From: Haliotis asinina
Taxonomy: Eukaryota > Mollusca > Gastropoda > Lepetellida > Haliotidae
NCBI RefSeq assembly: GCF_037392515.1
Contig: NC_090287.1
Span: 9,283,501-9,347,500 of the forward strand
Reading direction: 5' to 3'
DNA length: 64,000 nucleotides
Made by a program: the position numbers and the translations under genes. Below the pieces are notes generated by a model. That model had not been told where the DNA came from and ran no database searches. It saw nothing but the letters and a program-made list of their open reading frames with translations. Every line of letters starts with the position of its first letter. Position 1 is the first letter of the stretch. Shown piece after piece: positions 9,273-41,783 of this stretch.

Positions 9273-10232
9273 TCAGAATGGTTCACTTTTGTCAAATTCA
9301 GGATGCCCGTGTGCCCATTCATTTGTAAAATATTTCACAGTGTTGTCTAGCTTAAGCAGCTTCTCAAAATCGCTTGATGACAACTTCCAGTCAAAAATAT
9401 CCAGATTATCCTTAATTCTCTCGAAATTTTGACTCTTAGGCAAAACACCCATGCCCTTAAGCAATAAGAAGCTTAACAATATCTGTCCTGGAGTCTTCTT
9501 ATACTCCATAGCTAATCGTTTCACTAGTGGATCTTCAAGCAGAATCGGATCATCGGGTTTTTTCTTAGGTCTAGATGGTGCACCCAGTGGTGAATATGCT
9601 GTAAGTACAATGTTTTTATCTCCACAAAACTCAACAAGTTTGTTCTGCTGCCAGTAAGCATGTGCCTCAAGTTGAAGGTTTGCAGGCTTGATTTTAGCTT
9701 TATTCCATATCTTCTGAATCTGTTTTGGGTTGAAGTTAGATACTCCAATGCTTTTGGTCCAATTCTGACCATGCATCTCCTCAAAGGCAAACCATGTTTC
9801 CAGCAGGTCATAATGCTGGAGTTCACGTTCTCCTTTCGAATTGAGAGGTTTGAGTGTTCCATCCCCTCTATTGACATTACCCCAAGGTTGGTGAATTAAC
9901 AACAAGTCGACATATGTTAGTTTGAGATTTTCTAGCGACATCTCGGTACTTTTGAATGCCGCGTGTCTTTCCAAATAAGCACAGGGTACCTTCGTTGTGA
10001 TAAACAAATCTTTCCTTTTATTTTTCCCAGCCCTAATTCTATCATTGATGACCTCGCCTACTTCAACTTCGTTTCCATAGCTAAGTGCTGTGTCGATTTG
10101 TCTGTATCCTACGAACAGAGCGTAATCGACGGCCCGTTTCACTGTGTCACCTTTCATAAGATAGGTTCCCAGCCCGACAGTGGGCATGCGTACGCCATTA
10201 TTCATTGACAAATAACGCGCAATAGACGCCAT
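9273..10232 (-). CDS. Aldo-keto reductase, single uninterrupted ORF
   Basis: A complete 319-residue AKR-superfamily protein, the usual length for the TIM-barrel family of NAD(P)H-dependent carbonyl reductases. The catalytic tetrad is visible: Asp47, Tyr52 (IDTALSYGNE), Lys81 (TTKV) and His114 (LLIHQPW). GVSNFN (163-168), a QLEAHAYWQQ variant of the usual QIECHPYLQQ, and the cofactor-binding LPKS...R...N near 264-276 are present. It starts at the first Met (MASIARYLSMNNG), aligned with family N-termini, and stops with TGA. No introns interrupt it, although animal AKR genes usually have several, so it may be a retrocopy that kept its frame or an intronless paralogue. No poly(A) tract was seen. 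Substrate unknown; cytosolic (no signal peptide). Confidence 0.93.
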   Translation of the reverse strand: MASIARYLSMNNGVRMPTVGLGTYLMKGDTVKRAVDYALFVGYRQIDTALSYGNEVEVGEVINDRIRAGKNKRKDLFITTKVPCAYLERHAAFKSTEMSLENLKLTYVDLLLIHQPWGNVNRGDGTLKPLNSKGERELQHYDLLETWFAFEEMHGQNWTKSIGVSNFNPKQIQKIWNKAKIKPANLQLEAHAYWQQNKLVEFCGDKNIVLTAYSPLGAPSRPKKKPDDPILLEDPLVKRLAMEYKKTPGQILLSFLLLKGMGVLPKSQNFERIKDNLDIFDWKLSSSDFEKLLKLDNTVKYFTNEWAHGHPEFDKSEPF

Positions 10233-13472: not shown

Positions 13473-15323
13473 CTGGAGCAAAGACGTATCACAAACGTGA
13501 CTTCGAGGCAAACTGAAAATTTGGCTATAGGGTTTCGTGTCAATGGGTGATAAGTCTCCTTGGTATTTTTACGACTGATTTAATTCGTGATTTGATTGTT
13601 GTCGTGTTGTCGGACAACCGAATAGGAATCTTCTTGCCGGATGCGGCAAGCAGCGACTGCTGATGAATGGATGTGTTTTCAATGCTACAAAACCAAATGT
13701 TCCTATCCACCATTGCTGATTTCGCGCTCGTAACAAACACATCTGTAAATAGAGTTTAGTATACATACTTACCATCAGCCATGACGGGTTTGCGTGTAGG
13801 GCGGATGGCACTGTATGGGTGGTATGCGGGAACACACACGGTTCTTCCATAGCGCTCCACGCACCTGGAATTCTTCCCACATCGCGTGAACTGTAATAAT
13901 AATTTTTTAATTAATGTAATGCATACTTTATAATTTTTTAATTGTTTTTGGTTTCTTAACGCAGAAGTTGAAATTTCCTTTTCCTGAATGACGGTGGTCT
14001 GTAAAATATCAAGTCTAGACAACCCAGTGATTCGTATCATTAGCAGCGATCTTCGCCGTTGGGATACTGTGACATGCATCAAATATTTCACTGTTATGAC
14101 TACCCGTAAGTCGCCTCTCAAGAAAAGAATAGTTTGCAGAACACCAGTTCTAACCCAGATCTTCATAAAAAAATATGCATGCCAGGGAATATACCCTCAC
14201 TCGCTCACATTTTGTACTCAGTATTTAGTATATTATATCAAACTATACCGTTTAGAAGTCTACCAGAAGTTGCAATATACCGCACGAAATCATACAAATA
14301 TATTAGATCTTGGGATGATATTAAAGAGCGATGTGGGTTTAACATTAATTTCAACTGCATTTCATTTCTTTCACAGTTAGACTGCAAAATGTTGAACATG
14401 AAATTATGAAGAACAATGATCACTGTCTCACAAACCAATAATCACAATGGATGGTAATATTACAGTCAATATAACATTGTGATATCGATTATCTGTTTCT
14501 TACCAAGCAGCGTGGTGAGACTTTGGGGTGTGTCTTGTCAAGTAGACCGCCACTACGACTGGACCATGAGTTACACTTACACTCCCCAGGGATCATACCA
14601 TTGAGGCAAAACAACAAGCATCTTGGAACCGGTTCTGAAAATACAAATGATTTCTGTGAAGTCTTTCAGCGGCGTTTAGAAGTTTCTGTGAAGTTGTGAA
14701 GTTTAAAATCAGACAATCAATAATAGTTAAATTAGAAATTCAACAGGTGTCATTCCATACCTGACACTCTGACATTGTCGTTATTGTCTCGAGATACCAA
14801 TGTCTATCTATTAGACCGCTCCGATAGCGGTGGAGATGCCGATGGAATTGATGTCAGTCACAAGCAGTCGTGATCACGGCATCATGACATACAAAAATGC
14901 CAAACGTAAATACCAGTCAAACAACAGTTTGAAATAGGTATGCCGGAAAGCGACAGGATGTGAAAGTCTCATACATTACTAGTTTATCATTGTTTCTGTC
15001 GTACTGAATCTGTAGCTATTCAGGGCCACCTGTTTATCAGTCAGACTGGGGCATATTTTTATGCTTTCGTTCTCTCGGAAATTTGTAATAATATCCACTT
15101 CACATTAGCGGTAGGAGTGGTGTGATTGTTATATAATCTACCACAAACTCTGTAGAAGTTTGGGAATTTAAAAAGATGGTTAGGCACAATGAAATGTAAC
15201 CGCTGTGAGAAAAGAATGTTCTTTGGAAATGTAACTGAAATGGTCAATATACGTACCAATAAACGAACTCGCTTCAACTGCCGTGAGAACAACAAAGGCA
15301 CACAAGACAGTCTTGATGTCCAT
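13288..15323 (-). CDS. Secreted cysteine-rich / Kunitz protein, complete four-exon gene
   Basis: Four exons (15257-15323, 14504-14634, 13773-13890, 13288-13472) join in consistent phases (1, 0, 1) to give 166 residues. Residues 1-19 are a signal peptide ([19 protein letters not shown]). Residues 23-105 form a cysteine-rich region with no recognised domain ([31 protein letters not shown]). Residues 106-166 are a Kunitz domain with six cysteines, Arg at P1 (GRCRAAF), an FFF core and [11 protein letters not shown], ending QQPVH. It is predicted to be a secreted trypsin-type protease inhibitor. All splice sites are GT/AG. The opposite-strand ORF over the Kunitz exon is a shadow. Assembly is inferred but well constrained by phase and domain. 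Confidence 0.85.
13773..13890 (-). CDS. Exon 3, cysteine-rich region
   Basis: Acceptor ATTACAG, donor GTAAGT; phase 0 in, phase 1 out. Encodes [20 protein letters not shown] and a basic proline-containing linker to the Kunitz domain. Confidence 0.8.
13985..14135 (-). mobile_element. Degenerate family B fragment in intron 2 of the Kunitz gene
   Basis: Minus-oriented remnant (GACGGTGGTCTGTAAAATATC..CCCAGTGATTC..CCGTAAGTCGCCTCTCA) with many substitutions. Confidence 0.6.
14504..14634 (-). CDS. Exon 2, cysteine-rich region
   Basis: Acceptor TTTTCAG, donor GTAAGA; phase 1 in, phase 0 out. Encodes [16 protein letters not shown]... with five cysteines. Confidence 0.8.
15257..15323 (-). CDS. Exon 1, signal peptide
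   Basis: ATG at 15323; encodes a hydrophobic signal peptide and ends in phase 1 at donor GTACGT. Confidence 0.8.
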
Positions 15324-17716: not shown

Positions 17717-18040
17717 ATGGTTATACACGTGACACGCGGACGATCACAAGCGATGTATATTTTGTGCTATATATTAGTTATTCTCCTGGCACCAGTGTGT
17801 GCGATACACACGGACAATTACCGAGTTCTGACCTCGTGTCCTGGACATATCATGAAGAGTGAGTACATATCCTTGACAATTCGGGATGTAAGTAAGTTGG
17901 CCTGTGGGAGTAGATGTTCTGAGAGCGATTCCTGCAAGTCGTTTCAAAATGGATCGTCTTCGAGGATTTGCCGTCTGACATCTCATTACGGTGATTGTTC
18001 AAAGATGGAGCCCAGTACAGAAATGATGTTCTACGCAAAG
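17717..18040 (+). CDS. Exon 1, signal peptide and PAN/apple-like domain
   Basis: 108 codons ending in phase 0 at donor GTACGAG. Two starts are possible (17717 or 17753); the second gives the more compact signal peptide. About six cysteines follow in the module. Confidence 0.7.
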
Positions 18041-21000
18041 GTACGAGAGTACTTCTGACTTATGGAGTTATATATATGCGTGTACTGTTTCTCTTTATGT
18101 TGCCTTTCATAGTTTTCCCGGTCAAAATTGTCCCAGGTATATTTTATAGGGTCTGCCTCAGACTTCCTGCCTTTGACTATACTTGTGTCCATCTTTGTGT
18201 ATTGTACTTGATCCAAACGCTCCACTATATCTGTACAAAGAGAGAAGTATTATTGATGGATAACACAAATATTAAACCAAATCACTGTCACAAAAATTAC
18301 CCATAACCGCAGATGCGATCACGAGTGAGGACTCCCTTTAAATTCTCTGGAATTGTTTGAGTGAAATTACACAGTGAGGATTCTCAAATCCCCTAAGGAT
18401 TTGAAATGTTACATAACTCTAAAGGAGAGAGTTCATTCTGTCAAAACATTTGATTTGTGACACAGCATCCTGAAGGAAACTCTCTTTCTGTGTGGCACCT
18501 GTCACTAAACCTGCTAATGACAGAGCCAACCTGGAGTGAAAGTCGGGACGGGAAACAAATGGGCACCCATTGTGTCCCCTTTTATTTTGATCTGCTTGTG
18601 CAGGCAAAACAAAGAGACTGCTTTGAATGGCATTTTTTAGGTTGGGAAGTACAATATCGAAGCACGATACAGTACGGGAAGTACGATACAGATTCTTGTA
18701 CCGTTGTCAAGTATAGAGGTTTATACTTGAGAACGGTTAAATAATCTGTATTGAAACGTTGCACTCACTAATAAAAGAAGTTGTTATCCGCAAATTTTCT
18801 TCTCTGTGATAAATCATGCAAACATAGCAAAGAAGTTGAACTAAGCCTCATCTACATCGATATCGTAAAAAAATCGGTTCAGTTTCGTACGATAAATGAC
18901 CGAGACCAGTGAAATCGTCCCACCAGTAGCATTCAGAGTGACAAATTTTCTCTTATGTCGATCTGTATTAAGTGTTATAAACTTAAGGATGCGGTGAGGT
19001 AGCCTAGTGCTTAAAGCGCTCGCTCGTGACGCAGAAGACCCGGGTTCTATTCCCCAGATGTGTACAATATGTGAAACCTATTTGTGGTGTCCAAGCCCCG
19101 TAATATTGCAGGACTATTGCTATACGCGACAGACGGTTAAACTAGAGACACTCACCCACTCGCTGTAACTTTAGATAGTGTAGGACCACATTCTTGGTGT
19201 TCAAATGATAAATATTTGTTGTACAGTTTGGGGCTGTGCTTGGGAATATCATCAACTTGGTTCTACAGACATGTCTATGAATGTTTAAACTACGTCATGA
19301 AGATACATATTTACACGAAATCATTACTTACAACCTAAGGGGGAGAACCAGAAGGCTAGGGGACTAACTGAAATTCAGAATGTTCTGTCTCGGGGAATCT
19401 GTCACAGTACGGGTGACACGTGGGCATGCGTTATCTTATTAATGTGTGATGAATGAACGACATCACTTGAGGCCCAATGATCTCATCAGACCTGTAAGAT
19501 TGCCACTGACAATGACAAGTTGAGTCCCACCATGAGACCCCCAAACCATAACTCTACGTCGGACAACGCACCGTTCACCTCCCCGTCTGTATACCATGCC
19601 ATCTGAGCCTTCCAGACCTCGTCTATTGTGCAGTAGATCCTGCTATATCTGAGCCTTCCAGACCTCGTCTATTGTGCAGTAGATCCTGCTATGGCTATGT
19701 CTGAAACACGTGGGTGACGTATTGCATGGCGCTGGGTCCGGATGTTGTACTTCCTCAGTCGGTTCCGTACAGTCCTGGAATTGACTAGGCCTAGGCCAGG
19801 AATGGCCTGAGCAGTCTAGAATTACTTCCTTAGATGGGTCTGCCAAATGTGGCTGCCTTGCCAACGTGACGTGACGCTGTCCGAGACAAAGGTCTTGTGT
19901 TATGTTGAAAACGTCTCCATTGTTTATGAGATGAGATCGTGTTTAGAAAGACAATGGACAACGATATCATACAAACAAACATAAGTATGATATGAACATA
20001 AAATGGCGAAAAGCGAATCACTAACTATAGTTGTTGCAATATTTTTCATCATTTTTCATGTACACATTGTGGAAATTATTCATTCAGTCGCAAAGAGCTA
20101 AGTAGAAAACTTGATTCCATGTCTTCTTCAAGTGCCATCTTTTGTTCGATAACGGTGTTAGAATCTACACCGAGACGTCGCATCCACTGCAAGAAAGAAG
20201 TTGTCTATCCATAAAAATCTTCATCCTCCTTGAGATTCAATGGTTGGTGACGTTTTGATAAATGTTCAGAATCCCGCTGCAGTCGTCAAAAACTGGAAAG
20301 TTTCCCCTGAATCGCGTGCACATTTTCCCCATCTCTGTGTCCCGTTTAGTCGAAGGTCACTGCAGCGAAGGAGCTTTGTGTCGTGCAAAGTCAAACTGTA
20401 GCGCAAATAGGATCGCACAACAGAGAGAAAAATATATGTATACATGATATGGATGCTCAGGCATAAGTATAAAAGAATATATCGTCTTAAACGGCATTCC
20501 ATTCGTGATGGGCCGTGATTGTCATTGGTAAACTCGGTCATTTGCTCTGTATTCTCTGTTTGTTAGACCAGTGAATGTGAAAATGGCGGTATTCTACAAC
20601 CTGACTCGAGTTGCCAGTGCGTCAATGGCTACGTGGGTACGAAGTGCGAACGTTTGATGAGAGGTAAGTGTAACAGTCTTGCCATTGTCTCTCCTTTATC
20701 GCCACGATATGACTGCAATATTGCCTCGGTGTGACGTCAGATATTATCTCACTCACTCACTCCTTTATAGACCCGCGAAGGTCCAGGGTAGAATAGGCCT
20801 TCAGCAACCATACTTGCCATTAAAGGCGTCTATACGGGATCGGGTGGTTAGACTCGCTGACGTGGTTGACACTTGTCAGGGATTATCTTTTATATCTATT
20901 GTTCTTTGAAGTGGTACATAATTGTAGCTAAAGTTGGCAAGCTCAGAAACTTGCTTCTTAGCAACTTAACGTGTGCCATCAGTATATTTTTAAATGAACT

Positions 21001-24000: not shown

Positions 24001-27000
24001 AGGTGGGTTACTACAAAAATAAGAGTATCTCCTTACGTTCAGCATCAAGTTGTGTTCATGATAAACTAATATGAAATCATAACAAATAACATTATTTTCA
24101 CACACAGTACATGTTTTGTTTCCTAGATCCACATTAAACCATCATCCCGTTTCAATTGGTAATATATGATTAGAAGTTCTTAATTTTGTTAACCAGATAC
24201 GAACATTTGGTGGGAGGTCTAAAAGACAGGGTTCTAAGGTGAGTTTTACATAAATGATAATATTTTCTTTTAGATGCATTTGAGCATCTGCGTACTATGA
24301 TTGTTTGATCTGGTCAATTAATGAAGTTTTGACATAAAGTTTCAAGCAGTGGATGGTAGGAAACTTTTGTGATTTCCAAATAGAAGGCATTTGAAGAATA
24401 CTTTTGACTGCTTATAGTTAGCTGATCGAAATCAGCATTCTGGGGAGATGATCTGAATTTCATAACGTTATAAACAATGTGGGGAAATTTACTATACTAC
24501 CCACAAAAAGGAACTGTGCATTGTCAAAATATCATCCCAGTTGATAAGTATAATAACAATGTCAAAAATACAGTATGGTTCAAAATTATTGAGAATAGCT
24601 AAAGCATTTCATATTATTAAACGAGAACAAATCAGATAAAATTGAATGTATTGTGAAAGTGAACTGACCTTTTCATGTTGTGTAGGTAACAATTTAATAT
24701 TTTATCAAGTCTCCTTGAGCCTCACGGCACAGTCTAAGACGGGTAGGCATACTTCCTATCAGAGAGGTTAGTGTCTCGTGAGTTATGCTGTCCCAGTATC
24801 GGACCACTTCTCTCTTCATGTCTTCAATTTTTGTCAACCCCTTTTGATTCACACATTCCTTCATCATCCCCCAAATGTTCTCAATGGGATTTAAGTCAGG
24901 ACTATATGCAGGAAATGGTAATGCAGTCACATTTTTCTCCTGAAACCACTGCTTGGCATGTTTTGCGGTGTGTTTAGGATCATAATCTTGCTGCAAAATC
25001 CAGTCATTTCGATAAAACACATGTGCACGTGGAAGGAGAAAATGATCTAATATGTTAGTGTAGCGTTGACTTGTCAGATTTCCCTCAAACACACACAGCG
25101 GGATCGTTCCTAATAAGGATATCCCTCCCCATACATGAAACTTTGGGCTGTATTTAGGTCGTCGATACAACGGTGCTGACGCAGACTTTGTCCATATTTT
25201 CACATTATTGGGATATACCCATATTGAGCTTTCATCAGTAAAAATCACATTTTCCCAGTCAAAGTTTGCATGTGCCAAACACCACTCAACACGCCTGTCT
25301 TTATGTTCTTGTTTCATGAGAGGAGAAGGAATTCCAGTCTTTTTCTCCCATCCAAGATCAATCAAATTTCTTCTAACTGTAGATTTTGATGCAACTGTTG
25401 ATCCCCTTTCTATCATTTCATACCTGATGTTGGAGATGCTTGCCCTTTGCTTTTAAGACGCTAAAAGTCCCAGCCGGACGCGATCTGAGAAGTCCAATTT
25501 TATGGGTCTCCCTGCTCCTTTCTGGTGCCCAAAATCCTTTCCCTCTTTAAAATTCTTCCTAATCCTTTACACAGTAGAAAGAGGAGTTCCTGTTCTCTCT
25601 GCCAATGTATTTACATCATCAATTCCTTGATTACACAACTCAAAAATCAACCTTCTTTTATCTTCAGCAGACATTATTGACAGTGCTGAGGAAAATGACG
25701 TCTGCTACAAATTCAGGGGAGGTAACTCTAATTGTACTATACTGAGTAGGCCAAGATGAGTTACCTCCCTTATACCATTACTTAGTTTTAAGTATCAGTG
25801 AATCAGTTGAGGTGTTAGGATAGCTCAAAGTAAGAAGAAAAATTCTCAATAATTATGAACCAGACTATACATATAAACTTAATTGGAGGGGATCATGAGA
25901 CCATAACAAGTTGGGAGAATTTCAACTGAAAAGTCAATCATAATGACGTCCCGAGTCCACGAGCGGGACAGGAATCAAACGACCATGTCACAAGCTCAAT
26001 AACGGGTATGTCCACCATCGGCAGTGAGAACAGCAGTGCATCGATGACACGCAGAGCCAATTAAATGTGCAAGGAAGGCTTGTGGGATGTCACGCCACAT
26101 TCTCTCAAGTTCTGTTGCAAGGTCAAGGACGTCATCTTGCGGATAAGGAAGACGGCGTGGACGTCGATTGACCTTGTCTCACACATGCTCCATGGAGTTG
26201 CGTAGCGTAGAGAATATGACCAGTCTTCACTTGAGTAATTATGAAACATGGGGTAGGAAACGTGAGTGCACAACCAAATGAGGACATGGGAGTGTACCTT
26301 TGATGGTGGTGATATTTCATTTTGACATATTTTTCGATCCGAAGCGAGGGAAGTACGTTGCCAACCTTTTCCACTTTGAATGTTCTTCGAAAGTTTTGAA
26401 CATGTTTAAAACATTTACAGCATGTTACAAGAATTGACCCGAACAGTTGGAATGCATTACTGTAAGAAGTTTTAGAATTCACTTCGAATTTCCAGGAATC
26501 TCAGAAATTCAGACAGCATTTCGACTCATTACGGCTCAAGTGTGATAGAGGTGTTAGGCCTTTTGGCAAGTCAAAACATTGATAACAGAACAGTCTCGTT
26601 TCCTGTTTACTGGGTTCCGTCCTGTTGCACAAGTTAGTGCGATAACCAGTCCAGTTTTGTTTAGACTAATTCTTTAAAGTGGATGCATGATTATTAATCA
26701 GTATGATTTGAAACGTCTAAGCACTTGTGTACTGCAACACCACTGCGCTCATTCTAATCCATGCAGACACGCCGTATATCATGCTCTGTCGCACAGCAAG
26801 CTTTGACAAACGGAAATCTGGAAATCGTGGAAATCTCAAAACGAGGCTCTGCCGCAAGAAAACGTTGGCCGTCTGGTATAAATTGACACTTTAACAATTT
26901 CATTGTGCATTACAGAACTACATTGAATAAACGCGAAAAAAACACATGTAACCAGTGAGCCAGATGCATTGTGAATCATGTTATGGCGTCATCATACAGG

Positions 27001-30000: not shown

Positions 30001-32520
30001 GGTGATTGGAAACGACGTTTACAGGGCATCTTCCTTGAGTGGCATATAGAAGCACGCATGTTTGGTAACGGTGTCAGTATGGTTACCGAAACGTCCTATC
30101 TATTGCAATGAAGCAGTAGGCACAAATTCGCATTTGTATTAACGGGTGGCGGGTGGTTACGGTGAATAATTTGCCTTGACAAAAGGTGTAAGAAATCCCC
30201 TCAGAACCAGTAAAACACTTAGAAGTCTGATATTTTCCATAATTTGTGTTCAGCAAAAAGGCAAAGGCAAGACAAGATACAAAAGATTCACAAAAGAGGT
30301 TTCATGTACAATGCAACTGAATCAAATCTAAAGTAATGGGTCACAAATATAATGTCAACTCAAGTCTTGGTGGTTATGAAGGTCAAGCGTTGACGGAGGC
30401 AGGTTGATATAGTCCAGTTAATCTTTCTGTGTCCGGTCTTAGCACACCAACTAGCCTTTATATCCATAGTCATTGATTCAAGAACTTTCGAGCACTTTGC
30501 GACTATCGCCATCAACGTAGAAGCTTGTAGTAGTCTCCCGGAAGTAGGCACAACTAGTCAAAACATTTCGTCAAGAGGAGGTAAGTTTAAACTCTAAAGC
30601 GCTACCTTAAAGCCTGCTGCCAAAATACGAAAAGTGATGAACATTTATTGATACGAAATGAGACCCATTACAACAATCACGCAAAACTTTAAACATTGTG
30701 ACCCAAATAATATTTTTTGGCATTACTGAATTAATAATACAATTTACAGAAAATACACTCTCGAAACAGTGTGTGTGTGTGTGATGGAGAGAGAGTGTGT
30801 GAGTGTGTGTGTGTAGGGGGGGGGGGGGGGGGGTCTAGGCAGCGGGGAGTTAAGGAGTTCGATCCCCCGAACGCCCCTCTGAGTCCGCCAATCATATACA
30901 TGTGTAACGATATGGCTCTGGGTGGCCTGGGAGTAGATTTGACCGTTATACTAATGATGCCAAAGCCATTCGTGTCAATCACACGAAATCATACATGTAT
31001 TTCATTCATGACTGCAAAGTAACCAGTAGCCCAAACTGACATCCGTTGTTGTCTAAGTTTATGATGAGTTTGGGGTGTAGGGTTATGAGCCACGAATAGT
31101 GAATTTATGGAGACCAGTGAGATTCCTCATCTAGTGTGAGTCATACGCGTCATAGGGGCGGTGGACTAGTGGCTAAAGCGTTCGCTCGTCACGCCGAAGA
31201 CTTGGGACTTGGACACGTGTGAACATTTGCTGTCTACATATATTTGAGACCGGCCAGATGTTTGTAAAATCTACACGGCCCATAGGGTTAACTTAAGACA
31301 AAAAAGAATTTGTCTTAAAAAGCTGACCGACAAATAGAAGACTCAGGGAATTTCTATTTATCGTTGCTGGGAATCGCCCCTTAAAGGGAAATTAGCGATT
31401 ACTAACCTTGGGCCCATGCTATTCATAGGTGACTGGGATCGGATGGTTAGACTCTTATTGCTCATGATATCAATCACACTGTCGGTTATCAAATATACCC
31501 CATCACACTGTCGGTTACAAAATATACCCCATCGCACTGTCGGTTATAAAATATACCCCATCGCACTGCCGGTTATCGAATATATCAACTGCCCATTGCT
31601 TTTGACCCCGGAATCACCACTCCTTTGACACTGAACCATTGAAACATTAAGAAATTATACGGATTATTTGAATAGATAATGCTTCACATACTCAAGCTGT
31701 TCCCCAAATTAGTTAACTGCATACATGTAGTATTTCAAGGTTTTAAATTTTAATGTAAATTAATCATGTTTGACCTAGGTCGTGCCGTCATAAATACCAG
31801 GACGTATTGTATCATAAGTAGTTCTTCCCTCCTGTCCAGGCTGTTGTTATAGCTGGTGTTATTTCAGATTGCAGTGAAGGGTATATTTCTGGATTTGGCT
31901 ACCCCGACGGCTACTACAGCATCCAGCCAACGTCTTCATCTACGCCGTTTACGGTGAGATGTGTCATGGCACACGGGGGAAGAACAATTATCCAATACCG
32001 CATGGAGACACCAATTGCCACTCTCGACTTCAACCGGAGTTGGGCTGAATATCGTGACGGTTTCGGGTTGATCAACAAAGATCACTGGCTGGGGCTCGAG
32101 AAAATGTATCACATTTGTAAACCTCGGATCCTTACACTGAAGGTTGAAATGAAATTTGCTGATTATTCATTCAAGCAACAGTTCTACTACAACTTCTATC
32201 TTTCAGGAGAGGCCGACGGTTATCGTATGCACTTTTCGCAAACACGTGGCAACAGCAGGGTGTCATTAGGAGATTGTTTAACTCCGCTAAACGGTTCTGC
32301 GTTCAGCACATATGACAGGGACAACGACAATGATGCCGGAGGTTGTGCAGCCAGATACGAAAGCGGATTTTGATTTGACGCATGCGCAGAATGTAACCCC
32401 AATGGTCGCCTGCTTCGTCCACTGGACGAGAAACGAACTAATGTTTCGTCAGAGGTGTCCTGGACACATGACCTTGGGGTCAAGGTACCCCACAGAATGA
32501 TAATGTGGTTATCAGTGTGA
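17717..32520 (+). CDS. Secreted PAN/apple-EGF-fibrinogen-like protein, three exons, interrupted by TGA
   Basis: Exon 1 (17717-18040) encodes a signal peptide (the Met at 17753 gives MYILCYILVILLAPVCA) and a PAN/apple-like module (TSCPGHIMKSEYISLT..CGSRCSESDSCKSF..CRL). Exon 2 (20567-20663) is an EGF-like module (ECENGG..CQCVNGYVGTKCE). Exon 3 (31868 onward) is a fibrinogen-related domain (SEGYISGFGYPDGYYSI, DFNRSWAEYRDGFG, STYDRDNDND). Intron phases match: 0 between exons 1 and 2, 1 between exons 2 and 3. A TGA at 32371-32373 replaces the second Trp of the usual WW pair. The same frame then stays open for 48 codons (FDACAECNPNGRLL..) to TGA at 32518-32520, ten bases before AATAAA. Fibrinogen-domain proteins are often lectins in mollusc immunity. 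The 11-kb second intron is filled with repeats. Confidence 0.72.
18687..18751. repeat. Hairpin, about 28-bp arms
   Basis: ACAGATTCTTGTACCGTTGT..AAGTATA is mirrored by TATACTTGAGAACGG..AATCTGT around a 6-8 base loop, with mismatches. Confidence 0.7.
18990..19162 (+). mobile_element. Family A SINE (diverged) in intron 1
   Basis: GCGGTGAGGTAGCCTAGTGC..AAAGCGCTCGCTCGTGACGC with a B-box-like GGGTTCTATTCC and a CTCACCCACTCG tail. Confidence 0.75.
19600..19910 (-). mobile_element. Tc1-like transposase N-terminal fragment
   Basis: The minus strand encodes NSRTVRNRLRKYNIRTQRH, a helix-turn-helix and linker typical of Tc1-family DNA-binding domains, followed by degenerate sequence and a stop. The rest of the transposase is missing. 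It includes a 46-bp tandem duplication (19601-19646 and 19647-19692). Confidence 0.6.
19601..19692. repeat. 46-bp tandem duplication
   Basis: ATCTGAGCCTTCCAGACCTC.. occurs twice, at 19601 and 19647, nearly identically. Confidence 0.9.
20567..20663 (+). CDS. Exon 2, EGF-like domain
   Basis: Pyrimidine-rich acceptor ending TTAG (20563-20566) and a strong donor GTAAGT (20664). Encodes TSECENGGILQPDSSCQCVN and GYVGTKCERLMR; CxCxxGYxGxxC is the second half of an EGF fold. Phase 0 in, phase 1 out. Confidence 0.72.
20697..20880 (+). mobile_element. Family B tail fragment followed by a family B head fragment
   Basis: A tail-like piece (ATATGACTGCAATATTG..ACTCACTCACTC, to 20762) sits just before a head piece (GACCCGCGAAGGTCCAGGG, 20770-20880), a tandem arrangement of two partial copies. 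Confidence 0.7.
21824..22050 (-). repeat. Inverted repeat arm, left
   Basis: The reverse complement matches 27690-27917 at roughly 80 percent by eye, sharing AAGTCATGAAGGGTTTTCTA and TGCATTCAGTG. See the right arm. Confidence 0.75.
22709..23638. repeat. 62-bp satellite array, 15 copies
   Basis: Exactly 15 head-to-tail 62-bp units starting CGTCAGAGATGCAAGCTGTA. The units are almost identical, differing at a few sites (GAACACC versus GAAAACC, one GAGCGAAC, one TTGAATCG, one ACTGAC). 62 is not a multiple of 3 and the unit contains stops, so it is not coding. It sits in intron 2 of the PAN-EGF-fibrinogen gene. Confidence 0.97.
24571..25867 (-). mobile_element. Tc1-like DNA transposon, nearly whole, 1297 bp
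   Basis: Terminal inverted repeats of about 26 bp (CAGTATGGTTCAAAATTATT at the left; the right end ends GAACCAGACTA) are flanked by TA duplications at 24569-24570 and 25868-25869. The transposase frame runs on the minus strand from ATG at 25674 to the stop at 24694 with no frameshift. Confidence 0.92.
24694..25674 (-). pseudogene. Tc1-like transposase with two in-frame stops
   Basis: DD34E catalytic triad: TDES, QQDYDPKHTAK, and PDLNPIENIWG with 34 residues between the second Asp and the Glu. The N-terminal DNA-binding part (MSAEDKRRLIFELCNQGIDD..) is in the same frame but has TAA at 25567-25569 and TAA at 25453-25455. The downstream 240-residue catalytic part is uninterrupted. The second catalytic block reads QDYDPKHTA where QDNDPKHTA is usual. 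It probably does not make active enzyme. Confidence 0.9.
25996..26205 (-). pseudogene. C-terminal fragment of a second Tc1-like transposase
   Basis: The minus strand encodes NSMEHV, then DKVNRRPRRLPYPQDD.., LERMWRDIPQAFLAHLIGSA and DGGHTRY, ending TGA. The order matches the ExxW..IP..F..SM..R..GG.TRY end of Tc1-family transposases. A TGA stands where HVW(D/N) is expected. It is a different family from the neighbouring 24571 element. Confidence 0.7.
26230..26375 (+). repeat. Lone copy of the foldback arm seen at 35.6-36.2 kb
   Basis: Shares AAACATGGGGTA.., ATGGGAGTGTACCTTTGATG and ATTTTTCGATCCGAA with 36080-36245. Confidence 0.75.
27530..27917 (+). repeat. Inverted repeat arm, right, tandemly duplicated
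   Basis: Two diverged tandem copies (27530-27685 and 27690-27917) share GTCAAGCAGGCTGAAATGAC/CAGGGTGAAATGAC, AACTAGACT..TCATGACAGT and TTTACTTTTGTTT. The second is the inverted partner of 21824-22050. Confidence 0.7.
27920..29050. other. Intronic DNA without recognised features
   Basis: Within intron 2 of the PAN-EGF-fibrinogen gene; nothing recognised. Confidence 0.5.
29055..29161 (-). mobile_element. Family A SINE fragment
   Basis: Minus-oriented: TAGGCCTCACACGTTGTACC..CGAACACGGGTCTTCG..CGAACGCTTTATCCACTGGGCTACCCCACCG. The CTCA tail is not recognisable. Confidence 0.8.
30771..30833. repeat. (GT)n/GA-rich tract ending in an 18-G homopolymer
   Basis: GT and GA dinucleotides followed by 18 consecutive G (30816-30833). 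Prone to polymerase slippage and G-quadruplex formation. Confidence 0.95.
31155..31215 (+). mobile_element. Family A SINE 5' fragment
   Basis: GGGGCGGTGGACTAGTGGCT..AAAGCGTTCGCTCGTCACGCCGAAGACTTGGGA; cut before the B box. Confidence 0.75.
31477..31590. repeat. 29-bp tandem repeat, about 4 copies
   Basis: CACTGTCGGTTATCAAATAT..ACCCCATCA repeats at 31477, 31506, 31535 and 31564, the last copy diverged. About 270 bp upstream of the fibrinogen exon. Confidence 0.9.
31868..32520 (+). CDS. Exon 3, fibrinogen-related domain with in-frame TGA
   Basis: Acceptor ATTTCAG ends at 31867; phase 1 entry gives D-CSEGYISG. Fibrinogen-domain landmarks: TVRCVMAHGGRTIIQYR, DFNRSWAEYRDGFG, HWLGLEKMYHIC, FYLSGEADGYRM, STYDRDNDND, GGCAARYESGF. 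TGA at 32371-32373, then FDACAECNPNGRLL and a terminal WTHDLG..MIMWLSV in the same frame, ending TGA 32518-32520. Loss of the last 48 residues would remove the carboxy lobe of the domain, including a conserved cysteine. Confidence 0.8.
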
Positions 32521-36211: not shown

Positions 36212-36739
36212 TTTTTCGATCCGAAACGAGGAACGTACGTTGACAAACTTTGCTCGCTTCGCTCGAGCATATAGTAGACTTGTCATATTCTCTATGCTGC
36301 GCAATCCCATTAGCGCTACAGTTTGCCTGTGAACTGACATTGGTGGTAGCGCTCCTTTCTGGAACAGAACTAAAATCCCTTTAAATAATCTCTTCCTCTT
36401 TGACATATACATTTACACACCAAAACATTTGACATAATCATAACTAGAAGATATATTCATGAAGAGTATTATGTTCTTGCAGGAGATACCGATGACCCAT
36501 TTGTGACCAACTTGTGTTATTCCAACACAAGTCCCCGAATACAACAATAAACTGAAAACAAACTGAATAATAACAACTCAAAATACAGAAAATATATATT
36601 ATTTAATGATTCCTCATAGAAATACAAAAACAATTTGGGAGTGGTGCACTTTACTGGGCGCAAATTTTCCAATTTTTTTTCGGATGGATATACTCGCACC
36701 AAAGGTAAGCCAGCCATAACCTTTATTCACTAACCCTAA

Positions 36740-37145: not shown

Positions 37146-37217
37146 CTACATGACAACGATGTCACCACATTGGTAGAAGGTTGGAGGAGCTTTTGGGTTC
37201 ATTGTCACATACTGCGT
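37146..37217 (-). CDS. Exon 5, terminal
   Basis: Encodes TQYVTMNPKAPPTFYQCGDI and VVM then TAG (37146-37148). Confidence 0.8.
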   Translation of the reverse strand, partial: TQYVTMNPKAPPTFYQCGDIVVM

Positions 37218-40200
37218 CTGAAATACAGGTAGGTATACAGTTATCACTGTATCTACTTGATCAGTTTTGACATATACACACAGTTAGTTACCGAAGGTTG
37301 GGTCGGGGATATGTGCTTACACTTATACACCCGTACAGATGAGCAATGACATGACACAAGGCTAATACATACCTGAAGAATATAACCTTTACCGGGCCTG
37401 AAATGTGTGAAAAGAAAGTTAGCAGAGAACATTATTTATAAGATAACAACACTTCTGTACTCAACATAGTGACCTGTAGCCTTCAGTTTGTGTTCTTGGA
37501 GATCATTCATCTGTATTTAACCCATATAATACAATGAGTACATGTTGGTGAGCACATGGGTAAAGGGTAATGGTTGCAAATCACTGGCACTACATCATTG
37601 GTTTGATATTCCGATGCCATTCATAAAGTGACTGCATTATACACCAAAACCTCCAAAACGTCTATTTATATGACAAAGATAAAAAATATGCATTAAGTCC
37701 CATATTTATTCCTGATAATGATTTTAGAAAACTAAAAGAGCACTCTGATTATCATCTCTTTTAATATATAGTTACATCTTTCTAATTTAGCTTCCACAAA
37801 ATTTCTTTCTTTCTTTCAAAGTCGGATGCCTTGTCCACATGACCAAAGAGGTTATAACCCTCTCAGCAAGCTCACAAGGTAAGGATGTCATCTGTGTGAT
37901 GACTCCATGCCCTGCTACACATACACTTGTTCATGTACAGAGATTAGACACAGGCGGTGCTGTTACAACCTTGTGTGCATTTCATAGAGTGCCAGTTACA
38001 CATGTATGAGGAATGTATAGGAATATACAAGAATATCACCATCATTCTCTGTCATCATATAAAATATTCCGGAATGATTTACTGAGTTCAGTACTGACAA
38101 CATTCTACCAGAGACTTTTCAATCCCAGACATTGGTGCACTAGCTGGTCTACAGTGGGCCTTGGCCCGGTGGATGCAGATTTACATACCTGACAACTGGT
38201 ATAGTGATGTTCACAGAGAAAAGTGAGAGTGAGGGCTGGCCCATGTCAGGTATTCTCACCAGCTCAGTCAGGTTCATTGTCTCCACACCAAACATGACAG
38301 AGAAGTGGCCCTGGAAGATCACAACTCCATGATAACTGGAGATACCGGTAGGGAATCAGTGGTGGACACTGGCTGGCAAGTTGGATCAGCCATGAAAGCC
38401 AGGTGTTTGCAATCTGGCTAAATATGTTTTGTTCCAACACAATTTGCTAAAAAAGTGTTTGTATGTTGATATACAACCATACATAAACATATCATACGAT
38501 CAAATACCAATTTACCATATGCCATACAATCATACAGCAATATACTGTACAATCACACATCAGTATACTATACAATCACACATCAACATTACTATACAGT
38601 CTAAAGAAACTAAGGTCTAAATGTTCAAAAGGTATGTGCAAATGTCAAGTTTCTTGCTATGGTAACCTGTGTTCTGATTGGTCAGTTGAAAGATTTAGTT
38701 GAGGCAACTTTCTACTAGGGTTTGTTAGACTCAGAATAGATGTGTAACGAATAATATTGAGCTTAATACTAGACAATCATACATCAATATACTATACAAC
38801 CATACATCAATATACCATACAACCATACATCAATTTATTACACAACCATACATCAATATACTATACAATCATACATCAATATACTATCCAACCATAGATC
38901 AATTTACTATACAACCATACATCAATATACTATACAACCATACATCAATATACTATACAACCATACATCAATATACTATACAGCAATACATCAATTTACT
39001 ATACAACCATACATCAATATACTACACAACCATACATCAATATACTATACAACCATACATCAATATACTATACAGCAATACATCAATTTACTATACAACC
39101 ATACATCAATATACTATACAACCATACATCAATATACTATACAATCATACATCAATATACTATCCAACCATACATCAATTTACTCTACCCATACATCAAT
39201 ATACTATACAACCATACATCAATATACTATCCAACCATACATCAATATACTATACAATCATACATCAATATACTATCCAACCATACATCAATTTACTCTA
39301 CCCATAGATCAATTTACTATACAACCATACATCAATATACTATACAACCATACATCAATATACTATCCAACCATACATCAATTTACTCTACCCATAGATC
39401 AATTTACTATACAATCATACATCAATATACTATACAACCATACATCAATATACTATACAATCATACATCAATATACTATACAACCATACATCAATATACT
39501 ATACAACCATACATCAATTTACTATACAACCATACATCAATATACTATACAACCATACATCAATATACTATACAATAAATGTATAGGCCATAGTTTCTCC
39601 AAAATACAGAAATATGAAGACAGCAAGGCTCATACGGGTGAAGGTGAAAGGGCACCTGTCATTAACACTTACTGGTGTTGCTTTAACCCAGTGGTCAAGG
39701 TTCTTTTGAAAGGTCACTGTGAAGTTTTGGCCTTTGCTGAAAGTAAGTTGGTCCGAATCAGTAAACTAAATGTCAGAAAATACCAACTTGAAAACTGGAA
39801 TGAAAACATATCACAAATGTGTCAGAAATATAATATTTACCTTGTCCTGTTAAAAGTAATCAAGCTGCTTATCCTGATCAAGACCGGTTAATGTTTTGCA
39901 CCAACAATCTAATTACACCAGATGGTTTGTCACTTCACCCTGGCTTTCTTGGTTACATCCTATTCTGTCTACAATCCCAATTTGCCAACATCCCAGTTTG
40001 CCTACAAAAATTACTGTAGGCAGATTGGGAAATGGTTTTTTACCTATAAATAATGGAAGAACCTGTTTACCAGTCACTGAAGGGTGTGTTGTTTGGTTTG
40101 GGGAAAAGGAAATTAATGCAGTTTCACTTAAAGGTGAAATTATTGGGAAGACCTTTCATCATTCATGTTAAATGACAAAGGTTACCATTTAGAATTTCTC

Positions 40201-41739
40201 ATGTCTGGAGTAAATACTCAACATTACTGACTTGGGTCTGATGTGGCAACACGCCCATGGAAGTGGAGAAGAGGAAGTATCCCTTGACTTAAACAAACTA
40301 AAAACAACATCAATCCATGAGTTAACTGATTGATAAACTACTTTCAGCTAGTCAACACGTAGTGTTAGTGTATGCAGATGTACAAAACTAAACTGAATAC
40401 ACCCACTTTCTGTCGTAAAATCCCTTTGTAAATACAATATCCTTTCTTCAAAAGATGAACTACATTGATTGATTGCTTCTTGTTATCTAACTAAATTATT
40501 CTGTTTTGATTCATCAGTAGTAGCCACTTTCATTCCACTGGGTTTTTTTCACTCACGTTTGACGAGACAAATAACACATGCATACATACTAGGTCACACT
40601 TAAAGTGTGGGTGTAAAAATGATTTACATAACGAGTCTACAAAATATCAAGATATTACAATCATACAAGTCATTTACTGAAAACAGATTTTGTACTTTTC
40701 AAAATACAGAAAAATATAAGAATAAATTAATTAGGATTATGAGATAAAAATATATTGACATAAAATGACTTGGGTCTTTCTCACTTCTAATATTTTGTAC
40801 CACTAGCAGATGAATTTTAAAATGTTCTCACTTGTTATCATAATAATGAAGATAGAAGTATAATTAATGAGTGAAAAAGGTGATAAACACACAATGTCCC
40901 ATACCTGAGAGCCACTGCTGGACCCATTGCCCGCCCCCCACACGGTCCAGCAAGCAATATGCAGTCATCAGCTCCTGCAACACAGACACAATACATCCAG
41001 AAGGCTGGAAGGTATCACTTACCTCATGTCCCCACTTCAATTCCCACTTGAATGAAAACATATTATCTTCATTAGTTAAAATAGCTTATGAAAAACCCAG
41101 AAGAAGTGTTCATGTAAAAGATTTCAGTTCACACATGGATTACCATGTAATATTATTAGTGAGTGTATATGGTTTAACCTACTGGTCTAATGCACTGGTT
41201 CAAGCAGTGTTAAGGCGGGGCTTCAGGTACTGTACCCATGTGGGGAATCCAATATTACCCGATGTACGACTATTTAAAAATATCGCCACTCAAAACTGAA
41301 GTAAATCATTTTACGTATAGAGGACTCACCTAAGAATATGTATAAAAAGGAAAGAGTTCCGCCAGAACCACCCTCTGTTTACATATTAAATTTGTCATTC
41401 CCCGGTGTAATATTCCAACATCGAAATAACATAATAAGTTCACTGCTTGTTTCTATAATTGTCCTGGTTTATTGAATGTATATTTAGGGTGAGGTATGCA
41501 TGTAAGTTTGTAATTCTTTTTTTTTATGGCAGTGGGAGTGCGCGCGCAATTCTTACCACAAAATGATTGTTGCAATATAACAACAATAGTGCTAAAGTAG
41601 TCTCACAGCATATGACCACATATAACTCACCCTTCTTGTTGATGCCGAGCATGGACCCTCGCTGTGGGGGGCTTATCATGCATAAATGAGCCGTCGCAAC
41701 TGCGACACAGGCAAAAAGATACAACACACACTTGGTCAT
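37146..41739 (-). CDS. Small secreted protein with predicted N-terminal histidine (LPMO-like features), five exons
   Basis: Exons 41631-41739, 40905-40974, 38189-38335, 37373-37397 (a 25-nt microexon) and 37146-37217 join with consistent phases (1, 2, 2, 0) into 140 residues. Signal peptide MTKCVLYLFACVAVATA is predicted to be cleaved before His18, so the mature chain would begin HLCMISPPQRGSMLGINKKG. Other segments: ADDCILLAGPCGGRAMG, YHGVVIFQGHFSVMFGVE, LFSVNITIPVV, GYILQTQY and PTFYQCGDIVVM. The mature protein has four cysteines. An N-terminal His and a terminal FYQC.DI motif recall copper-binding lytic polysaccharide monooxygenase folds, but a second copper His is visible only as candidates, and I cannot name the family. 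Function unknown. Confidence 0.8.
37373..37397 (-). CDS. Exon 4, 25-nt microexon
   Basis: Acceptor ATTTCAG, donor GTATGT. Encodes PGKGYILQ after completing an Arg codon; leaves the reading frame in phase 0 for the last exon. Confidence 0.75.
38189..38335 (-). CDS. Exon 3
   Basis: Acceptor CTCCAG, donor GTATGT; phase 2 in, 2 out. Encodes YHGVVIFQGHFSVMFGVETM.. to VNITIPVV, beta-strand-like. Confidence 0.78.
38466..38600. repeat. Degenerate part of the 23-bp minisatellite
   Basis: CATACAATCATACAGCAATA-type units, separated from the main array by about 165 bp of non-repetitive DNA. Confidence 0.75.
38766..39573. repeat. 23-bp AT-rich minisatellite, about 35 copies
   Basis: Unit close to CATACATCAATATACTATAC+AAC. 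Variants (CCAACC, GCAATA, and a shortened CTCTACCCATAGATCAATTT form) recur in blocks, suggesting a higher-order pattern. Lies in intron 2 of the N-terminal-His gene. Confidence 0.95.
39986..40036. repeat. Short hairpin
   Basis: TCCCAGTTTGCCTACA is followed after 9 bases by TGTAGGCAGATTGGGA, nearly complementary. Confidence 0.75.
40905..40974 (-). CDS. Exon 2
   Basis: Acceptor TTGCAG, donor GTATGG; phase 1 in, 2 out. Encodes ADDCILLAGPCGGRAMGPAV. Confidence 0.8.
41631..41739 (-). CDS. Exon 1, signal peptide and N-terminal His segment
   Basis: Start chosen at 41739, not the in-frame ATG at 41769. The TATA box at 41776-41783 would place transcription start near 41750, downstream of the latter. 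Donor GTGAGT, phase 1. Confidence 0.82.
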
Positions 41740-41775: not shown

Positions 41776-41783
41776 TTATATAA
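41776..41783 (-). promoter_or_regulatory. TATA box of the N-terminal-His gene
   Basis: TTATATAA (same on both strands), about 37 bases before the chosen start codon; implies a 5' UTR of only about 10-20 bases. Confidence 0.6.

Follow-up and report, generated by a model that had tools for sequence, protein, structure and literature searches.

Gene structure

This study concerns a gene in a 64,000-nucleotide stretch of the 1.14 Gb genome of the gastropod Haliotis asinina (RefSeq assembly GCF_037392515.1, contig NC_090287.1, positions 9,283,501 to 9,347,500), referred to here as the window. The gene lies on the minus strand (41739 to 37146) and consists of six exons, all joined in frame, with GT-AG introns that are, in order, 656, 1168, 1362, 791 and 155 nt long. 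Its reading frame of 462 nt encodes 153 residues (136 mature, 14.7 kDa; residue numbers below are those of the mature chain). In sequence the product resembles proteins that bind copper through a histidine brace, among them the lytic polysaccharide monooxygenases (LPMOs).

An earlier note on this DNA had assembled five exons into a chain of 140 residues, about 123 of them mature. The outline of that model is real and its chain (423 nt) was reproduced exactly, but it requires 39736-39673 to be omitted and the next exon to begin 25 nt early at a second acceptor, and its mature length has to be corrected to the value given above. Both versions are open reading frames (ORFs). The six-exon model is better supported, because family models match the six-exon chain and not the five-exon chain: LPMO_10 (PF03067) gave 12.2–12.7 bits versus no match, the NCBIfam family SCE4755 (NF043005) 19.5 bits versus no match, and a profile of 24 bacterial relatives 16.2 versus 8.0 bits. 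The product of the omitted exon 3, SKGQNFTVTFQKNLDHWVKATP, aligns with the strand and the second brace histidine of the bacterial relatives. Global alignment scores were dropped as support for this exon, since the five-exon chain scores about equally (z of 3.6, 3.6 and 4.5 with six exons and of 3.1, 3.6 and 4.1 with five, against the X325 protein LaX325, the AA15 enzyme TdAA15A and one AA15 protein of the same genome).

Other elements of the first model were confirmed. The 25-nt microexon is in frame and needed: without it the frame ends after RRSM, with a stop as the fifth codon past the join. The TATA box stands where it had been placed, and the chain end given as FYQC.DI reads FYQCGDI. Five of the six exons matched only this place in a whole-genome search, in which the microexon gave no match; the whole protein, used as query against its own genome, also matched this place alone.

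Intron 3 contains a minisatellite of 23 bp (about 35 copies, 90% matches, 38766-39575), preceded by a short related array (38517-38598). Cores of metal response elements in the 1 kb upstream of the gene number three, two of them overlapping, versus 0.9 expected, which is too few for use.

Table 1 Features of the gene (window positions)
Feature	Position	Strand	Remarks
TATATAA box	41776..41782	(-)	43 nt before ATG
Exon 1, 109 nt	41631..41739	(-)	signal peptide MTKCVLYLFACVAVATA, His1, then HLCMISPPQRGSMLGINKK; donor GTGAGT
Signal peptide coding part	41689..41739	(-)	a cut after ATA is possible under the (-3,-1) rule
Exon 2, 70 nt	40905..40974	(-)	encodes GADDCILLAGPCGGRAMGPAVAL, includes PCGG motif; P30, C31 and G32 invariant in alignment A2
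Exon 3, 64 nt	39673..39736	(-)	SKGQNFTVTFQKNLDHWVKATP; includes mature His58 (codon 39693-39691), the likely second histidine of the brace; overlooked in the earlier note
Exon 4, 122 nt	38189..38310	(-)	encodes GHFSVMFGVETMNLTELVRIPDMGQPSLSLFSVNITIPVV
Microexon 5, 25 nt	37373..37397	(-)	encodes RPGKGYILQ
Exon 6, 72 nt including TAG	37146..37217	(-)	TQYVTMNPKAPPTFYQCGDIVVM; predicted axial Phe127 (37178-37176), Cys130 (37169-37167)
AATAAA, possible polyadenylation signal	36722..36727	(-)	

Predicted secretion and signal cleavage

The chain begins with a hydrophobic leader, MTKCVLYLFACVAVATA, which ends in AVATA and is followed by histidine (AVATA-HLC). The earlier note had proposed a cut after ATA that exposes this histidine; the (-3,-1) rule permits it, but also permits cuts after residues 13, 15 and 16. 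Since His1 aligns with residue 1 of the bacterial relatives, the cut directly before the histidine is the likely one.

No C-terminal anchor was detected in the chain, which stops three residues past its end motif and has a top 19-residue hydropathy of 1.31, from mature residue 24. Having no tail of the anchor type, the animal protein should be free in the secreted fluid. In this it differs from its bacterial relatives, 18 of 20 of which (ORFs from loci L176-L195) end in a low-complexity linker, a cysteine, a hydrophobic stretch and an arginine-rich end, presumably the surface anchor of MYXO-CTERM type; one of the other two is cut by the end of its stretch and one is without such a tail. It differs likewise from the X325/BIM1-like proteins with their C-terminal glycosylphosphatidylinositol (GPI) anchor, Bim1 being described as GPI-anchored in the part of a histidine-brace review consulted here (PMC10952591).

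Relationship to the bacterial family SCE4755

SCE4755, named 'polysaccharide monooxygenase-like' and typed by NCBIfam as a hypothetical equivalog, was the sole NCBIfam match of the animal protein (E 0.0031 for the mature chain, 0.0008 for the whole chain), at a score below the family cut-off of 75 bits. The five-exon version and the reversed chain matched no NCBIfam family. The profile of 24 bacterial relatives placed the whole chain above all of 20,000 shuffles, the best of which reached 11.7 bits.

Members of SCE4755 were found in one of the 16 bacterial genomes first tried and in 35 of the 235 genomes searched from the phylum to which G006, titled Myxococcota, belongs. In other phyla they were rare, with one genome of 398 (phylum of G009) and none of 296 over the cut-off, with one weak match (phylum of G014). 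When the animal protein alone was used as query against 222 genomes of the Myxococcota phylum, 77 gave matches at E ≤ 1. The top place was an SCE4755 gene, matched colinearly over residues 26-135 with 36% identity and E 2.8e-5 for one genome, which multiplied by the 222 genomes becomes about 0.006; the same gene was also found by the family model. Ten loci were fetched from this query (L164-L173), and only L164 matches the family profile.

For the alignments, 30 bacterial loci were fetched (L134-L163) and 24 cores kept by a script requiring the end motif and an Ala or Gly directly ahead of His. The start Ala-His is present in 28 of the 30, L153 and L160 being the other two, picked by the script; agreement on the His start is thus partly due to selection. 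Comparison of the animal protein with 14 bacterial rows (alignment A2) yielded identities of 20–30% and 11 invariant columns, namely H1, P7, P30, C31, G32, G45, H58, P64, T100, P102 and C130. A second alignment of 19 bacterial rows (A1, L135 numbering) has 19 invariant columns, ten of which are kept in the animal protein (H1, P18, C19, G20, G36, H49, P50 past a five-residue insertion, T98, P100 and C131) and nine of which are not (K15, E45, R54, L81, D83, C104, C107, M115 and Y128).

The likeness to SCE4755 extends to size (134–157 residues from His1 to the end motif in the 24 bacterial cores), to His1 following a leader, to PxxR, which is present in most bacterial rows, and to PCG, a GxxxxV strand, the invariant second histidine, a VTLP-like strand and an end of YYQCAD type. 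Peculiar to the animal protein are an insertion, WVKAT, after the second histidine, the cysteines Cys3 and Cys24, and an axial Phe at the place where all 19 bacterial rows have Tyr.

A PDB search with the profile of the 19 bacterial rows found TdAA15A (5msz) at E 4.1e-5, followed by AA13 (0.0078), AA9 (0.011) and AA10 (0.035), with non-LPMO chains only from E 0.62. Four bacterial relatives (L135, L140, L150 and L164) all match both BIM1-like (PF20238) and LPMO_10 at E 0.01 or better. The BIM1-like cut-off of 27 bits is passed by two of them (40.4 and 29.5 bits) and the LPMO_10 cut-off of 23 bits also by two (34 and 25.9); in all, three of the four get over one or both cut-offs and the fourth stays below each (21.3 and 21.4). 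From these Pfam results we conclude that the bacterial family occupies an intermediate position between BIM1-like and LPMO_10, and that the animal protein is attached to it. SCE4755 thereby links two Pfam families that are listed apart.

Open reading frames around 20 bacterial relatives gave no functional clue: among the clusters listed, apart from the family itself and ORFs on the strand opposite to it, none was common to more than five of the 20 loci. Nor did any other functional evidence for the bacterial family come to light, although no literature search was aimed at it. Searches elsewhere did not add relatives. Phages gave no match to the animal protein (tblastn, E ≤ 10), and the three plasmid records at E 0.8–4 were all ABC transporter genes. 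Four scans of viral contigs yielded no pattern match in two cases, 19 matches without a relative in another and 12 stretches, none confirmed, in the last. One scan of genome contigs returned 68 loci with a motif of the type HLC/HFC-xxx-PPQxG, none of which proved to be a relative; the best tblastn match covered 19 residues at E 0.009. The PDB, queried with the animal protein alone, gave three matches at E 0.18–1.5, none an LPMO. The BIM1-like model found nothing in the H. asinina genome, but control genomes were equally silent, so that this result is uninformative.

Comparison with X325/BIM1-like and AA15 proteins

With the X325/BIM1-like proteins (LaX325, PDB 6ibh) the animal protein has in common a compact domain, His1 and the end YQC(A/G)D. 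The spacing from the cysteine of the PCG type to the second histidine is 27 residues in both the animal protein and LaX325, 30 in L135 and 60 in TdAA15A. To judge from these sequences, the compact build is what the animal protein has in common with the bacterial and fungal proteins.

The AA15 proteins (TdAA15A and the AA15-like genes of the same genome) resemble it in their start, H1-x-x-(L/M)-x-x-P-P-x-R-x-S-M, in their end, F-Y-x-C-(A/G)-D-(I/V), and in an axial aromatic residue. They are unlike it in length, the animal protein being about 60 residues shorter, in having ten conserved cysteines instead of four, and in possessing a CG.CGD block and Ala89, the place of which is taken by Leu56.

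The H. asinina genome contains 25 other LPMO_10 places at E ≤ 10, on contigs C1, C3, C5, C8, C10, C13, C14 and C16; 24 of these are over the cut-off, two of them only together with neighbours in frame. Many are AA15-like with starts of the form HGRL..PP.RSSMWR, and several are clustered on C3 and C16, suggesting local expansion.

For the two ends, start and end profiles were made from ten and eight AA15 copies of this genome, respectively, all chosen by motif match, and were applied to the window in six frames, to the reversed window and to 68 bacterial loci. These control loci had been fetched by a similar start motif, which makes them the stricter control for the start. The N-terminal 13-mer of the mature chain scored 35.0 (next 23.1) and was the best of 2,643 window 13-mers starting with His; the C-terminal 10-mer scored 29.25 (next 20.9) and was the best of 73,443 window words. 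None of 2,120 words in the reversed window and none of 23,651 in the bacterial loci reached the start score, and none of 69,714 and 799,599, respectively, the end score. In global alignments with His1 fixed, 4, 5 and 0 of 2000 shuffles scored as high as the chain against LaX325, TdAA15A and an own AA15 protein; the same test for the known pair LaX325 and TdAA15A gave 57 of 2000. Local alignments were weaker, with 37, 469 and 32 of 2000 shuffles as high.

Predicted copper site

For TdAA15A, the part of PMC5823890 consulted gives His1 and His91 as ligands, together with the axial Tyr184 and Ala89. BIM1 and LaX325 add an Asp on a Gly-rich loop, according to the account in PMC7529816; in LaX325 it is most likely that of the GGDG preceding LYQC.

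His58 of the animal protein aligns with the invariant histidine of the bacterial relatives, and that histidine is itself aligned with His91 of TdAA15A. The nearby His66 is replaced by Tyr, Trp and Thr in L154, L164 and L146. Because His58 aligns with an invariant residue, while His66 varies, His58 is likely the one that fits the second brace histidine. Phe127, three residues before the last cysteine (Cys130), falls by alignment at the axial position. The LPMO motif N/Q/E-X-F/Y, as described in the text of PMC5320794, is absent, with Pro125-Thr-Phe127 at that place. By alignment, the loop before the end motif, VTMNPKAPPT, contains neither Asp nor Gly, and NPKAPP stands where LaX325 has GGDG; L164, the closest bacterial relative, has a similar loop, MTENPQNPRYYYSC. 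Cys31 and Cys130, both invariant in A2, probably pair, and Cys3 and Cys24 are the animal protein's own. On this reading, the copper would sit in a bare brace and have Phe on its axial side.

Evidence weighing against the placement

Several results weigh against a placement next to SCE4755 and BIM1/X325, or against its firmness. The chain reaches no curated Pfam or NCBIfam cut-off; LPMO_10 stays under its 23 bits, and BIM1-like gives no direct match at E ≤ 10, a model to which LaX325 matches with 3.3e-24. Against the profile of 24 relatives, the best single stretch of the chain scores 9.7 bits and thus less than that of the best shuffle (11.4), so that the 16.2 bits are a sum of weak stretches. 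TdAA15A outscores the animal protein on the bacterial profile (26.2 bits), as does an AA15 protein of its own genome on SCE4755 (27.2 bits); by these scores, the animal protein is no closer to the bacterial family than AA15 proteins are. Among the places listed for the 222-genome query, just three belong to family genes, two of which have E values of 0.126 and 0.894, and most SCE4755 genes known from the family-model search were unreached. The animal protein is also without the bacterial CxxC pair. In the tree it stands among SCE4755 sequences rather than beside AA15 or LaX325, but because of a very long branch and weak support (59/87) its position is a hint only.

The similarity to AA15 has comparable limits. 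In hmmsearch, exon 1 is the top stretch of the window for the AA15 start profile, if weakly (E 0.022, the next, chance stretch at 0.058; best in the reversed window 0.3), and the end and His2 profiles leave exons 6 and 3 outside the four best stretches of the window. A His2-block match at 14410 (+), 15 residues long, was taken as chance. A full AA15-only profile does not raise the chain over 20,000 shuffles. Single-sequence hhalign aligns only the last seven columns with LaX325 (P 0.032) and the first 13 with AA15 (P 0.005). With the ends removed, the middle compared with single LaX325 and AA15 sequences is matched by 383, 255 and 718 of 2000 shuffles, and was dropped as evidence of its own.

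Two assignments were rejected on these grounds. An AA15 paralogue or recent duplicate disagrees with the result of the AA15-only profile and with exon borders that differ by eye. Full membership in X325 or SCE4755 disagrees with the scores, which stay below the cut-offs, and with the absence of marker residues.

Alternative explanations

The best surviving alternative, which we regard as unlikely, is that the protein is an active LPMO of minimal size, an AA15-like enzyme in reduced form acting oxidatively on chitin or some other polysaccharide. Such an enzyme would agree with the two end words, which match the AA15 profiles better than all other window words, and with a copper position left open by the lack of the Asp, unlike in X325. 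An axial Phe occurs in most chitin-active AA10s, according to the part of PMC5823890 consulted, and also in the AA15 ends read from this genome, though the search for those asked for Phe. However, LPMO_10 reaches just 12.7 of 23 bits, four cysteines stand against ten, Leu56 replaces Ala89, Pro125-Thr-Phe127 replaces the N/Q/E-X-F/Y motif, the CG.CGD segment is absent, and by eye no intron position is common with the AA15 exons read. By the markers tested, the animal protein is not a full LPMO. The idea in the earlier note of an LPMO-derived or histidine-brace protein holds in part: AA15-like ends, SCE4755 as sole NCBIfam match (under cut-off) and an SCE4755 gene ranked first in the protein-alone search speak for it in sequence terms, but not for a complete LPMO.

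It is less probable still, and in our view quite improbable, that a former histidine-brace protein has retained the fold, no longer performs metal chemistry and has taken on a structural or signalling role after secretion. The long tree branch would fit, as would the loss of the Asp of BIM1 and of the second-sphere residue of LPMOs, yet both brace histidines are kept despite many diverged positions, as is a histidine right after an allowed AxA site. That the chain is a hand-splicing artefact of unrelated open stretches resembling a gene is hardly credible: the model was read from genomic sequence and some profile controls are negative, but the six exons, bounded by GT-AG sites, connect without a break of frame, five of them match only this place genome-wide, the similarity to bacterial relatives runs in order through the chain, and both ends beat every control word.

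Other features of the window

Uninterrupted ORFs on the minus strand encode a 319-residue aldo/keto reductase (9276-10232; Pfam E 1.5e-49), possibly an intronless retrocopy, and a 240-residue piece of a Tc-type transposase (24697-25416; DDE_3, E 7.1e-17). On the plus strand, exon-like ORFs contain a fibrinogen C-terminal domain (31954-32370) and a PAN domain that follows a possible leader peptide (17717-18055).

Interpretation

Taken together, the protein is very probably homologous to the histidine-brace group. We consider it rather probable that it represents a compact, unanchored animal branch of histidine-brace copper proteins, a relative of SCE4755 and BIM1/X325 within the LPMO_10 superfamily, which would more likely handle copper than cut polysaccharides. 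For its parts, confidence differs: copper binding appears likely, and a role in copper handling rather than catalysis is an evenly balanced judgement. Once the signal peptide is removed, a single copper ion would be gripped by His1, through both its amino group and its side chain, and by the side chain of His58, and Phe127 would lie at the axial side. A Cys31-Cys130 bridge, read from the alignment, would join the two ends of a beta-sandwich, and the protein would bind, buffer or deliver extracellular copper. Copper binding or delivery is preferred to polysaccharide cleavage because the AA15 surface loops, Ala89 and the LPMO second-sphere residue are missing. That the Asp of BIM1 is missing speaks against the protein simply repeating BIM1 chemistry.

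In the part of the histidine-brace review consulted (PMC10952591), X325/Bim1 is listed for fungi only, and among the matches listed in a search of open-licence papers none named this animal family. The text of Voshol et al. 2017 (PMC5320794) describes a fungal 'LPMO14' group with secretion signal, linker and helix; from its linker and helix, we read this group as probably X325. Its distant BLAST hits are given there as 2% animal, from bivalves, sea anemones and stony corals. These hits, known from the text alone, which does not contain their sequences, may include the animal branch described here.

More tentatively, we propose an unnamed animal class of free, secreted, minimal histidine-brace copper proteins with an ancestry in common with the anchored myxobacterial SCE4755 and the fungal BIM1/X325 proteins. 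Such a class, possible but in our estimate somewhat improbable, would have lost the BIM1 Asp and left the fourth copper position open, and its members, of a kind new to animals, would act as copper carriers or as small oxidases distinct from LPMOs. With an animal protein of this compact build, X325/Bim1-type copper chemistry would reach animals outside AA15. As a small natural scaffold with neither the BIM1 Asp nor the LPMO second-sphere residue, such a protein would make the chemistry of a bare brace testable.

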